From NCBI RefSeq assembly GCF_000316645.1, contig NC_019684.1, forward strand, positions 496,001 to 560,000: a stretch of DNA of 64,000 nucleotides. Direction: 5' to 3'. The stretch comes from Nostoc sp. PCC 7524. Lineage in GTDB: Bacteria > Cyanobacteriota > Cyanobacteriia > Cyanobacteriales > Nostocaceae. Shown one piece after another: positions 36,528-40,610 of this stretch. Position 1 is the first letter of the stretch, and every line of letters starts with the position of its first letter. The notes under the pieces were generated by a model. That model was not told where the DNA came from. It did not search any database and saw only the letters and a program-made list of their open reading frames with translations. The translations under genes and the position numbers were made by a program.

Positions 36528-38318
36528 CTAGAAGGTGAAAGTAGTTCTGAGAGTACCGATAATCGCATCATCAGCATTACCATTTTGACCAGGATTGGTC
36601 AACCAGATGATACCGGGGGTGATGGAGATGTTATCAGATACACGATATTTGTAGAAGCCTTCAACTTGGTATGGAACTTTGTTCAAACCAGCTTCTCTTC
36701 CTCGTGCATAGGGTTGAGCGCCTGCGAAAATCCCTAAAACGTTACCTCTCTTACCAAAGTCAGGTAAAGCTATACCAGCGCCGTAAGACCAAACTTCACT
36801 ACTGTCATTAGCACCAAAGCCACTAACATCGGTGTAGGAAACGAAACCACTTACAGATATCCTATCACTAGGTCTGAAGGCTGCCGACAAACCATAGGAG
36901 TTAGTCGCAAAGGCGCTAGTTTCCAGTGTTGCACTATTAATACCACCATAGTTGGCGGTGGTGGTACCCACTACAGGTCTAGCAGAGGCTGGATTCAACA
37001 CATTGGCATCAGACCCAGAGTTGAAGATTGCAGACCCTGCACCATGATAACCATGAACATAGGTAGCAGCTAATGCCAAGCGATCGCCGACACTAAAGTT
37101 TAACTGACCTAATGCCGCATAGTTACCGTTAAACACACCTGAACCAGCGCCAGGATCATTAGCTTCTGATGCCAAGTAACCCACTGTTAAAGAGCTAGGT
37201 CTCAGAATACTGCCGCCTGAGCCAAAGGGTAAGTTAAAAGCAATACCTGAGCCACCACCAATTCGATAGATGGGGCTTTCAGAGGCAAAGGTAGATAATG
37301 CGCCATTACCACCATCTGTTTTGTCAAAGAAGTAGGGGTTATTGACTGCTGCATAATGGCTATGTTGCCCACCGCTAGCTGCGAGGTAAACTCTCGCTGG
37401 GCCAAAGGGAGCTTCATAGGTCAGTCGGTCAATCTCAACGTTGTTGTTACCAGTGTTACCAACGTTAAAGGTTTGCAGACCTTCGCCACTTTGAGCGAGA
37501 GCCGGGCCAACAGCTCTATCATTACCCAGGTTAAAGTTATTGGCATTACCAGCAGCTAGACGGGTAGTTAACAGGTCTCTACCTGTAAAGCTGGTGTTTA
37601 AGCTGAGACGGACTCTGTTTTGGAAGACAGTATTATTGTTGTCTCCGACTTGATCGCCAAAAACATCACTTACGGCAAAAATAGCTTCACCAGCGAGTTT
37701 AGTGGTTGTCGAGAACTGGTTGGCTTCCAATTCCGCAGTCCGCGCTTCCAAAGCATCTACACGACCACGCAAGGTTGCTAGTTCAGCAGAGAATTCTTCT
37801 TGCAGGCGTTGTAAGGTAGCTAAATCTTCTTTTGTTACTAAATCAGCTGTTGCTGTGGCGATTAATTCGTTCACCCGATCCAAACAGGCGTTCAAACCAG
37901 CAGCAAATTCATAACGGGTTAAGGCTCTGTTACCACGATAGGTGCCGTTGGGATAACCAGCAATACAGCCATAACGCTCAACCAAGGACTGCAATGCTTG
38001 GAATGCCCAGTCAGTTGGTTGTACGTCAGAAAACTGGGACACAGATGTTACCTGAGACAGAGAAGTATTATTTCTGCCTTCGGTGCTGTAGCGGTTAACT
38101 TGGTCGATGACTTTTGTATCTTCAGTTGTTGGGGCTGCTTGAGCTACAACTTCTGGCTGTTGTGCAATTTCAGGAAATGCGGTTTCTGTGGTTGCTACTT
38201 CTGTGGTTGGTACTTCTGTAGCTGTGGTGGGAGCTGCAATTGCTGTTGACGAAACTAACAGTGTTGCTCCTAAAACCGCAGGGCTAACCACTAGGGATTT
38301 CCACAATAGATTAGACAT
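36528..38318 (-). CDS. SLH-domain outer-membrane porin (OprB/iron-uptake porin type)
   Basis: 596 residues from ATG 38318, supported by GAGGAG upstream. A signal peptide ends near residue 28 (STAIA). A Thr/Glu-rich linker follows, then an SLH domain (SQFSDVQPTDWAFQAL to LTRYEFAAGLNACLDRV), a coiled coil (LQRLQEEFSAELATLRGRVD), and an OprB-like beta-barrel ending in TFTF with a terminal Phe. Abundant cyanobacterial porins of this type admit small solutes and inorganic ions. A strong terminator follows. Confidence 0.9.
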   Translation of the reverse strand: MSNLLWKSLVVSPAVLGATLLVSSTAIAAPTTATEVPTTEVATTETAFPEIAQQPEVVAQAAPTTEDTKVIDQVNRYSTEGRNNTSLSQVTSVSQFSDVQPTDWAFQALQSLVERYGCIAGYPNGTYRGNRALTRYEFAAGLNACLDRVNELIATATADLVTKEDLATLQRLQEEFSAELATLRGRVDALEARTAELEANQFSTTTKLAGEAIFAVSDVFGDQVGDNNNTVFQNRVRLSLNTSFTGRDLLTTRLAAGNANNFNLGNDRAVGPALAQSGEGLQTFNVGNTGNNNVEIDRLTYEAPFGPARVYLAASGGQHSHYAAVNNPYFFDKTDGGNGALSTFASESPIYRIGGGSGIAFNLPFGSGGSILRPSSLTVGYLASEANDPGAGSGVFNGNYAALGQLNFSVGDRLALAATYVHGYHGAGSAIFNSGSDANVLNPASARPVVGTTTANYGGINSATLETSAFATNSYGLSAAFRPSDRISVSGFVSYTDVSGFGANDSSEVWSYGAGIALPDFGKRGNVLGIFAGAQPYARGREAGLNKVPYQVEGFYKYRVSDNISITPGIIWLTNPGQNGNADDAIIGTLRTTFTF

Positions 38319-38604
38319 CTTGACTTTTCTCCTCACACCTTGTATTGATAATTGTTTTCGCTGTACCTATTCTCAAAAGCATGAGACATCATCATTTTGA
38401 AATCTGTTGATGAGGCACAGTTGCCACCTACCACAATTTTAGTTTTTGCCAAGCTAATAACTGATTAACTTAATGTTAAAAATTGATGTGATTAACTTAT
38501 GCAAAAAACATTGCTATATAGCCTGTTATTATAGGTCATCTCAAGGGGATGGCAAGGTAGAAGCGATCGCCTCATCAACTGTCACAATTAGTCAACTACA
38601 TATA

Positions 38605-38691: not shown

Positions 38692-38973
38692 TTAGCTGAT
38701 TTGAGAAATGACATTGGCCACGTCAAAATCCTTTTGTGTCAAACCGCCTGCATCATGTGTTGTTAATGTGATTTGCACTTTGTTATAAGAAATTTCTATA
38801 TCTGGATGGTGTCCGGCTGACTCCGCAGGTTCGACTAGCTTATTCACAAATGCGATCGCTGTTACAAAGTCTTTAAATTTGCGGGTAGTCTGTAACTTAG
38901 AACCTGCCACTGTCCAACCCGATAGGCTACTAGCTTGTGCTTGAATCTCTGCATCAGTTAGTAGTTGCGCCAT
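38692..38973 (-). CDS. phhB: Pterin-4a-carbinolamine dehydratase
   Basis: 93 residues, typical length. AGHHPDIEISYNKVQITLTTHDAGGLT carries the active-site His pair and the family pattern. It dehydrates 4a-hydroxy-tetrahydrobiopterin. In cyanobacteria without phenylalanine hydroxylase the role is unclear, possibly in pterin or molybdopterin handling. A terminator follows at 38605-38640. The structured RNA described below ends 181 bp upstream. Confidence 0.88.
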   Translation of the reverse strand: MAQLLTDAEIQAQASSLSGWTVAGSKLQTTRKFKDFVTAIAFVNKLVEPAESAGHHPDIEISYNKVQITLTTHDAGGLTQKDFDVANVISQIS

Positions 38974-39154
38974 ATCAACAACCCTCTAATATTTACGTCT
39001 TTGCTATCCCACTGCCTGCAACATTTGTCTTTTCTGTACTGTTAAAACAAATTTCGCAGAAAAAGAAAAATGCTAGATATTTTTGCTCTACAAAACTTTA
39101 ACGTGATTGGCACTGTCATGACAGACAGTAAGCATCAAAAAATCTAAAGTTAAC

Positions 39155-39206
39155 CATAAAAAACTATCCGCTCTGACTTAGATCAGATGACCTAATATCA
39201 GAGCGG
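39155..39206 (-). terminator. Intrinsic terminator of the structured RNA
   Basis: CCGCTCTGA (39168-39176) and TCAGAGCGG (39198-39206) form a 9-bp stem. On the minus strand the stem is followed by ATAGTTTTTTA. It marks the 3' end of a minus-strand transcript. Confidence 0.75.
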
Positions 39207-39310
39207 TCTAGCGGGTCTTCAGGTTGCAACCAGACTGCCGGAAGGAACTCCGTGCTTTAGCCTAGCTACAAGTAGCTAACTTAATCTGACAAGCAGACTA
39301 AGGCTAACTT

Positions 39311-39382
39311 TTAGAGAACAGCCCCGGCGCACAGCCGGCTAACTGCAACCTGATGACCCATGCGTTTACTACTTTCTATCAT
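39311..39382 (-). CDS. 23-codon small ORF with an 11-nt Shine-Dalgarno
   Basis: ATG at 39382 on the minus strand, stop TAA at 39311. The peptide starts MIESSKRMGHQV and ends LCAGAVL. AAGGAGGTGAT upstream is fully complementary to the 16S rRNA 3' tail, with ideal spacing. The start codon lies in a hairpin GATGCCCATG/CATGGGTCATC, whose right arm also forms the closing helix of the structured RNA. This suggests mutually exclusive folds controlling translation. It could be a leader peptide or a dual-function RNA. Confidence 0.4.
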   Translation of the reverse strand: MIESSKRMGHQVAVSRLCAGAVL

Positions 39383-39420
39383 GGGCATCACCTCCTTGTT
39401 GCCTAAACGGTCTTAGTCTC

Positions 39421-39444
39421 AAAAAGGCAGAGAGTAAATCTCTG
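39421..39444 (-). terminator. Small hairpin plus T run upstream of the structured RNA
   Basis: CAGAGA/TCTCTG (39428-39444) with CCTTTTTG after it on the minus strand. It resembles a short terminator or attenuator placed between the candidate promoter and the small ORF. Confidence 0.45.
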
Positions 39445-39496
39445 GGTATTAACCTTCGAGTAATATAGCATATCAATTGCAAAATATTCACTAACA

Positions 39497-39554: not shown

Positions 39555-40610
39555 TTACAGTGCGTTACCGCGAGGTAATACCTCTTCGGGGAAGACAAAT
39601 TTTTCGTGGGGTTGGTCTTGAGGAGCCATCCAAGCGCGGATACCCTCGTTCAACAAAATGTTTTTGGTATAGAAGGTTTCAAATTCGGGGTCTTCTGCCG
39701 CACGCAATTCTTGCGATACGAAGTCATACGCCCGCAGGTTGAGTGCTAAACCGACAATACCGACAGCACTCATCCACAAACCAGTTACTGGTACGAACAA
39801 CATGAAGAAGTGCAACCAGCGTTTGTTGGAGAAAGCAATCCCGAAAATCTGTGACCAGAAACGGTTTGCTGTCACCATGGAATAGGTTTCTTCTGCTTGG
39901 GTGGGGTTGAAGGCGCGGAAGGTGTTAGCACCGTCGCCGTCTTCAAATAGGGTGTTTTCTACGGTGGCACCGTGAATCGCACACAATAGCGCCCCACCGA
40001 GTACACCCGCTACACCCATCATGTGGAAGGGGTTGAGTGTCCAGTTGTGGAAACCTTGCAGGAATAACAAGAACCGGAAAATGGCTGCTACACCGAAGCT
40101 GGGTGCGAAGAACCAGGAGGATTGTCCCAAGGGGTACATCAAGAACACGCTGACGAATACCGCGATGGGGGCTGAGAATGCTAGGGCGTTGTAGGGACGG
40201 ATGCCTACTAACCGCGCAATCTCAAATTGCCGCAACATGAAGCCGATTAAACCAAAGGCTCCGTGTAGGGCTACGAAGGGCCATAATCCACCTAGTTGAC
40301 ACCAACGGGTGAAGTCCCCTTGGGCTTCTGGTCCCCACAGCAACAACAGGGAGTGTCCCATGCTGTCGGCGGGGCTAGATACTGCTACTGTCAAGAAGTT
40401 ACAGCCTTCTAGGTAGGATGAGGCTAGTCCGTGGGTGTACCAGGAGGTGACGAAGGTTGTGCCGGTGAGCCAACCGCCTAGTGCGAGGAAGGCGCAGGGG
40501 AATAATAATATCCCTGACCAACCTACGAATACGAAGCGATCGCGCTTCAACCAGTCGTCTAGTACGTCAAACCACCCTCTACTGGGGGCGCGTCCTACTG
40601 CGATGGTCAT
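39555..40610 (-). CDS. psbD: Photosystem II D2 protein, solitary copy
   Basis: 351 residues, complete. [20 protein letters not shown] is the D2 N-terminus. Five membrane helices, RPYNALAFS (redox-active Tyr D region) and [38 protein letters not shown] helix D with chlorophyll and iron ligands are present. It binds reaction-centre chlorophylls, pheophytin and QA. No psbC overlaps or follows, so this is the monocistronic, psbD2-like copy. Own promoter and terminator are visible. Confidence 0.97.

Follow-up and report, generated by a model that had tools for sequence, protein, structure and literature searches.

A structured, putative mini-mRNA of cyanobacteria that fits ncl0160/Sye_sRNA1 and whose start codon is predicted to be gated by its own fold

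Introduction

The minus strand between psbD and phhB in Nostoc sp. PCC 7524 raises a simple question: what is the compact RNA encoded there, and why would a 23-codon open reading frame (ORF) be built into its fold? The window, i.e. the whole stretch of 64,000 nucleotides that was analysed, had been given a first-pass annotation, which listed this RNA as unassigned and pointed to two competing folds of the kind expected for a switch.

Two RNAs in the literature are candidates for its identity. According to the part of the report available (PMC4734099), ncl0160 of Synechocystis PCC 6803 has homologues in 83 cyanobacteria with an ORF of 23–25 aa after a ribosome-binding site (RBS); the ORFs end in TAA, TAG or TGA, and the RNA was called likely translated and predicted to be structured. 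Sye_sRNA1 of Synechococcus elongatus UTEX 2973 is described, in the accessible part of its report (PMC6091082), as an sRNA that only 16S rRNA exceeds in abundance, with a main transcript of ~200 nt on Northern blots and with homologues that lie mostly downstream of psbD or cobB and conserve their structure; a homologue is listed for Anabaena PCC 7120, and in Synechocystis 6803 it is fused to sll1501. A third cyanobacterial RNA, Yfr6, has a length of ~250 nt and a 33 aa ORF that begins at nt 97 (available parts of PMC1242208 and PMC2864571). We did not recognise the window RNA in the accessible parts of the Norf1/Norf4 paper (PMC5126843), PMC1242208, PMC2662882 (the 2009 prediction set), PMC2864571 or PMC3219970, short strings of the RNA and its peptide had no match in open-access full texts, and the portions of the open-access literature that were available gave no function in print for the RNA.

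The answer that we favour, with slightly better than even confidence, is that the window RNA is a copy of ncl0160/Sye_sRNA1 and acts as a stand-alone structured mini-mRNA of ~300 nt, the start codon of which is gated by the RNA's own fold.

Results

A self-contained unit between psbD and phhB

The unit at 39470-39158 on the minus strand lies between psbD (39555-40610; PF00124) and phhB (38692-38973; PF01329). It is self-contained and comprises, where the first-pass annotation had placed them, an extended -10, a 5' hairpin, an 11-nt Shine-Dalgarno (SD) sequence, a 23-codon frame and a terminator, together with a closing rod. Its features, all on the minus strand, are as follows.

39462..39470, minus strand: extended -10 promoter element TGCTATATT, from the sequence
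39428..39444, minus strand: short 5' hairpin and then a U-rich run, detected in 35 of 42 close relatives under a loose rule
39402..39411, minus strand: conserved leader ACCGUUUAGG, from the alignments; some Chloroflexota copies are similar by eye
39387..39397, minus strand: 11-nt SD AAGGAGGUGAU (DNA AAGGAGGTGAT), 4 nt before the AUG, from the sequence and alignment
39311..39382, minus strand: 23-codon ORF MIESSKRMGHQVAVSRLCAGAVL plus UAA, kept in 90 of 90 loci
39352..39389, minus strand: start-codon hairpin GAUGCCCAUG/CAUGGGUCAUC, 89.7% of alignment cells paired, no covariation among 30 sequences
39344..39359, minus strand: closing helix P1, 5' strand, within the ORF, from covariation
39333..39339, minus strand: P2, 5' strand, partner 39229-39236, from covariation
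39322..39328, minus strand: P3, 5' strand GCCGGGG, partner 39237-39243, from covariation
39314..39319, minus strand: P4, 5' strand, ending at the stop codon, partner 39245-39250, from covariation
39237..39250, minus strand: P3 and P4, 3' strands, from covariation
39229..39236, minus strand: P2, 3' strand, from covariation
39213..39228, minus strand: P1, 3' strand, from covariation
39158..39211, minus strand: intrinsic terminator CUAGACCGCUC...GAGCGGAUAGUUUUUU, 13 pairs, six of them changed on both sides

The sequence holds the signals for a transcript of its own, i.e. a promoter and a terminator. Among 90 aligned loci (60 fetched regions and 30 from a DNA search, with the window copy counted once), 77 have TGNTANNNT at a distance of 25-110 nt upstream of the SD, compared with 11 of 90 in a reversed control. 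The combination of SD, spacer and AUG, AAGGAGGTGATNNNNATG, occurs a single time in the whole 6.7-Mb genome (control, 0), and the GGAGGUG core of the SD is invariant in the 30 sequences of alignment A1 (see below), the flanking letters being less so. The short 5' hairpin was not seen in the distant relatives in the alignment of 90 loci; in the window it is terminator-like, and in this copy the predicted partner of the U-run is the SD.

Folding of a 282-nt RNA gave -111.7 kcal/mol (z = -5.25), and none of 200 shuffled sequences was equally stable. The minimum-energy fold contains the closing helix but not the start hairpin, and the SD is paired with the leader U-run. A search of the window against Rfam found no family at the gathering threshold over the RNA, and in 12 related loci none of 14 Rfam matches fell at the RNA. 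Six sub-threshold matches in the window (E up to 10) lie outside the RNA body and were taken as chance; five cover the psbD terminator, one of these (Pinc) extending to 39424 at the 5' edge of the RNA, and the sixth is at 39054-39126. The best of them, OmrA-B, scored 28.3 bits versus a cut-off of 40 (E 0.0029).

The RNA fits ncl0160 and Sye_sRNA1 and is widespread in Cyanobacteria

The window RNA fits ncl0160/Sye_sRNA1 closely, as matched by descriptions rather than by letters: ORF length, RBS and stop codons, the location next to psbD or cobB, and a conserved structure all agree. It shares with ncl0160, as far as the available text describes the latter, a conserved 23-codon ORF preceded by an RBS, varied stops, structure and a phylum-wide spread, and with Sye_sRNA1, on the same partial basis, the stand-alone nature, psbD or cobB upstream and the conserved structure. 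Because of this fit, we count the object as already known; the label "unassigned" holds for Rfam but not for the literature. Differences concern the accounts given so far. In its accessible part, the report on ncl0160 (PMC4734099) contains no gating model, excludes picocyanobacteria and leaves Chloroflexota unmentioned, and that on Sye_sRNA1 (PMC6091082) describes an sRNA and gives it no separate small ORF, the one frame mentioned being a 24-codon extension of sll1501; the ~200 nt reported there compare with ~300 nt predicted for the window RNA. Yfr6 and the Downstream-peptide RNAs are likewise cyanobacterial RNAs with a short ORF, but their conserved part, according to the source text available, is the 5' UTR motif RF01704, for which there was no match at the window RNA. 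What we add here is the gate, a covariation test on held-out sequences, and picocyanobacterial as well as probable Chloroflexota relatives.

A DNA search detected the RNA in 141 of 149 genomes (96 of 100 genera), including its own genome with one copy, and gave no match in the remaining eight. Under strict filters, a covariance model, the check proposed in the first-pass annotation, had hits in 140 of 386 genomes from the phylum, again including its own; among 20 listed of the 246 non-matching genomes, at least four are of the same genus or family and at least three of the same order. Two of the matches, L258 and L259, are weak and represent another class, with only the SD and AUG in common and hydrophobic ORFs; we rejected them as chance, so that 138 of 386 genomes remain. 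L258 and L259 themselves have short hydrophobic ORFs after a strong SD and are, as far as seen, unrelated to this RNA. Eight picocyanobacterial copies have ORFs of 17 codons. In L097, L260 and L265 an earlier UAG gives a 17-codon ORF with an altered C-terminal part. By reading, L266 has 3 extra nt before the AUG and a 17-codon frame, and L267 has a shorter SD and a 23-codon frame. The exact pattern had no match in viral contigs.

Covariation supports a long rod that starts within the ORF

For the consensus structure, 30 sequences were picked from 48 that are <80% identical (alignment A1) and analysed with RNAalifold, which returned a single long rod, P1-P4, the 5' strand of which extends from codon 9 to the stop codon; the apical part is variable, and the terminator follows. 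In A1, the 45 pairs of the rod are paired in 97.5% of cells and 23 of them show double changes, a level reached by 0 of 500 shuffles, and versions of the structure slid along the alignment are only 30-50% paired. Because the rod had been derived from A1, we repeated the test on alignment A2, in which 27 held-out sequences and the window copy were aligned with plain MAFFT and onto which the structure was mapped via the window copy (L057 and L061 were also held out but are absent from A2). Here, 94.8% of cells are paired and 28 of 45 pairs have double changes, again with 0 of 500 shuffles as high; as the 27 sequences are relatives of those in A1 rather than independent lineages, A2 is a check and not a fully independent sample. 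Thus, covariation supports the rod. The closing helix P1, annotated at first as 15 bp, is present, with 14 pairs around a small internal loop instead of 15 perfect ones. The terminator helix coexists with P1 in the consensus and does not overlap the switching helices, and the conserved unpaired bases are the SD, the AUG and GUAGU, which resemble a translation start.

Two further pairings were considered and rejected. A local hairpin within the ORF (CCGGC/GCCGG) can pair in 29-30 of 30 sequences at each position, but the variants in L066 and L086 suit P3 better; GCUGG/CCAGC variants of P3 occur in L066, L072 and L086. A pairing of the leader with the GUAGUA loop, proposed by eye, is not maintained across the alignment.

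The frame and its stop appear more constrained than the peptide

All 90 loci preserve the ATG and a frame of 23 codons (86 loci) or 24 codons (4 loci), which ends in TAA in 66, TAG in 23 and TGA in 1. When the known Chloroflexota loci are set aside, the fetched DNA contains 172 different SD-start motifs; 165 of them open a frame of 23 or 24 codons and seven do not, and two of these seven, L258 and a second site in L039, appear to be chance occurrences. All 128 distinct copies in which the C-terminal motif was found have it in frame, and the insertions in L058, L066 and L076 are whole codons. We found no significant excess of synonymous changes (p = 0.48 and 0.26), and only four single changes from the consensus would create a stop; selection on the peptide is therefore weakly supported. 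The peptide is non-hydrophobic by reading, and where codons 10-11 change radically, for example from HQ to LL, P1 carries compensatory changes. From these comparisons, constraint appears to be stronger on the frame and stop than on the peptide, and we infer that translation, not the exact peptide, is the selected property.

We considered that the RNA might be non-coding and structural, with an incidental ORF, binding the 30S subunit through its maximal SD and thereby titrating or sensing free ribosomes, as could be argued from the genome-wide uniqueness of the SD-spacer-AUG, the invariant SD core in A1, and the fact that the SD and start region are the part common to the Chloroflexota copies. 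Given that start, frame and stop persist in every locus, that insertions come as whole codons and that the stop varies among stop codons only, we regard this as quite unlikely.

The 3' half of the RNA is predicted to open the start codon

The competition between the start-codon hairpin and the closing helix, as noted in the first-pass annotation, is borne out: the two are mutually exclusive because both use 39359-39352. The start hairpin shows no covariation, but its 5' side is fixed by the SD and AUG, so that little could be visible; of its ten pairs, one is broken in 9 and another in 12 of the 30 sequences. Among 161 distinct 23-codon ORFs, 153 have C or T as the third base of codon 7, which can thus pair with the G of the AUG, even though the codon itself stands for many different residues.

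We computed the mean probability that the AUG is unpaired in 48 homologues with a 30-nt leader and 10 scrambles per sequence. The full RNA gave 0.43, compared with 0.09 for RNAs cut right after the ORF and 0.11 after scrambling of the 3' part; from cut to full RNA, the value rose by >0.2 in 33 of 48 homologues and fell by >0.2 in one. With a 60-nt leader, which approximates the predicted transcript start in the window, and three scrambles per sequence, the values were 0.42 (full), 0.10 (cut) and 0.09 (scrambled), with 31 rises and one fall. The SD changed less, from 0.38 (cut) to 0.49 (full) with the shorter leader and from 0.35 to 0.43 with the longer one; in the window copy with the 60-nt leader, the SD is 0.22 open, being mostly paired to the leader U-run, and the AUG 0.77. 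Opening of the AUG in the full RNA is partial on average, and some RNA 3' ends are approximate because they were placed by the terminator motif. In these predictions it is thus the 3' half, a part of the RNA outside the ORF, that makes the start accessible. The picocyanobacterial copies do not follow this pattern, the AUG being less open in the full RNA in seven of eight and more open in one, and among 11 Chloroflexota copies six rise, three are unchanged and two fall. We therefore claim the AUG gate for the main cyanobacterial group only, in which the folding switch looks genuine.

Neighbouring genes vary around a conserved unit

Around the 90 loci, psbD lies upstream in 56 and cobB in 7, and downstream we found phhB on the same strand in 53, a porin of the SLH-OprB type in 58 and cysK in 5; because flank lengths are unequal, these counts are lower bounds. 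None of the five genes was found within the available flanks of six loci. In the window, the SLH-OprB porin gene (36528-38336, minus strand; PF04966, PF00395) follows phhB.

The frequency of phhB and the porin downstream would suit a cis-acting leader or attenuator of these two genes. However, neighbours vary, with cysK for example taking the downstream place in five loci, while promoter and terminator persist; the conserved terminator is not exclusive with P1, the distance from the first position of the aligned RNA to the porin match is 366-2067 nt, and the main transcript of the homologue is short on Northern blots in the accessible part of PMC6091082. We consider a leader function very unlikely. 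The same observations bear on the suggestion that the RNA is a metabolite-binding riboswitch. Covariation and the folding tests uphold the structured RNA with exclusive folds, which is what a riboswitch would have, but a ligand-sensing switch is unsupported because the terminator stands apart from the switching helices and different genomes have different genes downstream; moreover, no Rfam family matches at threshold, the sub-threshold matches touch the RNA at most at its 5' edge, and the unpaired conserved bases look like those of a translation start. We find this reading highly improbable.

Alternatively, the RNA could be dual-functional, encoding a peptide and also pairing with other mRNAs, e.g. 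that of the nearby porin, with ribosomes on the ORF exposing the 3' strand as antisense. The porin is downstream in most loci and also near the picocyanobacterial copies L250 and L253, and the named homologues are very abundant according to the part of PMC6091082 available. Yet the conserved stretches outside helices are the leader, the SD and the start region, with no obvious antisense seed, and six loci have none of the usual neighbours in the available flanks; we judge this possibility unlikely.

Three minor observations concern these neighbours. By reading, the order psbD, RNA, phhB-like ORF, porin recurs in the distant cyanobacterium L266. In L064, L065, L072 and L075, only 0-35 nt separate the end of the cobB match from the aligned RNA that follows (the three other cobB loci, L055, L058 and L066, are not included in this distance), in agreement with the cobB fusion printed for Synechocystis 6803 in the accessible text of PMC6091082. 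The contigs of L007, L014 and L020 break inside psbD, as expected because this gene has more than one copy.

A model for gating of the start codon

We propose the following model for the mini-mRNA, which builds on the computed anatomy, the covariation of the rod, the conserved frame and stop, and the predicted opening of the AUG by the 3' part, and which supposes translation of the frame in this organism. In the rod, the 5' strand is supplied by the second half of the ORF, and the 3' strand directly precedes the terminator. As long as the 3' strand is not yet made, or if it is lost, the ORF would fold back on its own start and hide the AUG. In the full RNA, P1 would capture the 3' arm of the start hairpin, freeing the AUG behind a maximal SD. 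A ribosome crossing codons 9-23 would have to melt the rod, and because the rod is then open, the start hairpin could re-form behind the ribosome and limit loading.

Type I toxin mRNAs such as hok and AapA have a start that is masked by a metastable hairpin and remodelled via 5'-3' pairing. By analogy, the logic here would be inverted: the long-range fold of hok and AapA closes translation, whereas that of the window RNA would open the start. Type I toxins are also hydrophobic membrane peptides with an antisense antitoxin RNA, and the peptide encoded here is by reading not hydrophobic. The covariation-tested structure, the prediction that the 3' half opens the AUG, and the relatives in picocyanobacteria and probably Chloroflexota make an unexplained abundant RNA testable with few mutants. 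The RNA also merits an Rfam entry.

A look-alike in Chloroflexota

A pattern scan of genome contigs returned at least 117 stretches, and among the 80 listed, at least five are on contigs labelled Chloroflexi, Anaerolineae or with a Chloroflexota genus; Anaerolinea and Oscillochloris are genera that we take to belong to Chloroflexota. In a sample of 301 Chloroflexota genomes, seven match with at most one mismatch and none in a backward control, but this is a narrow sample because one of the seven is the seed genome and the other six share one mismatch and look closely related. The Chloroflexota copies have the SD, the spacer, the AUG and GANNGUAGU in common with the cyanobacterial RNA, followed by a frame of 14-18 codons; they are shorter and without the rod. 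By reading, they have a hairpin covering the SD or the start and a terminator-like end, and some have a leader ACCG..AGG or ACCG..GGG. With the phylum labels, which come from metagenome-assembled genomes (MAGs), taken as given, the look-alike is likely homologous to the cyanobacterial RNA.

This distribution invites a broader and more speculative reading, which we put forward tentatively and consider rather unlikely: that this is an ancient RNA of Cyanobacteria and Chloroflexota, the function of which is the act of translating a short frame and not the peptide, such that the maximal SD and the GUAGU start region catch a ribosome, the RNA's own codons are the lock and its 3' half is the key. 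If this were true, cyanobacteria would be using one of their most abundant RNAs to meter or report translation. As a separate observation, a 23S rRNA gene is found near the Chloroflexota copy L244, on the opposite strand.
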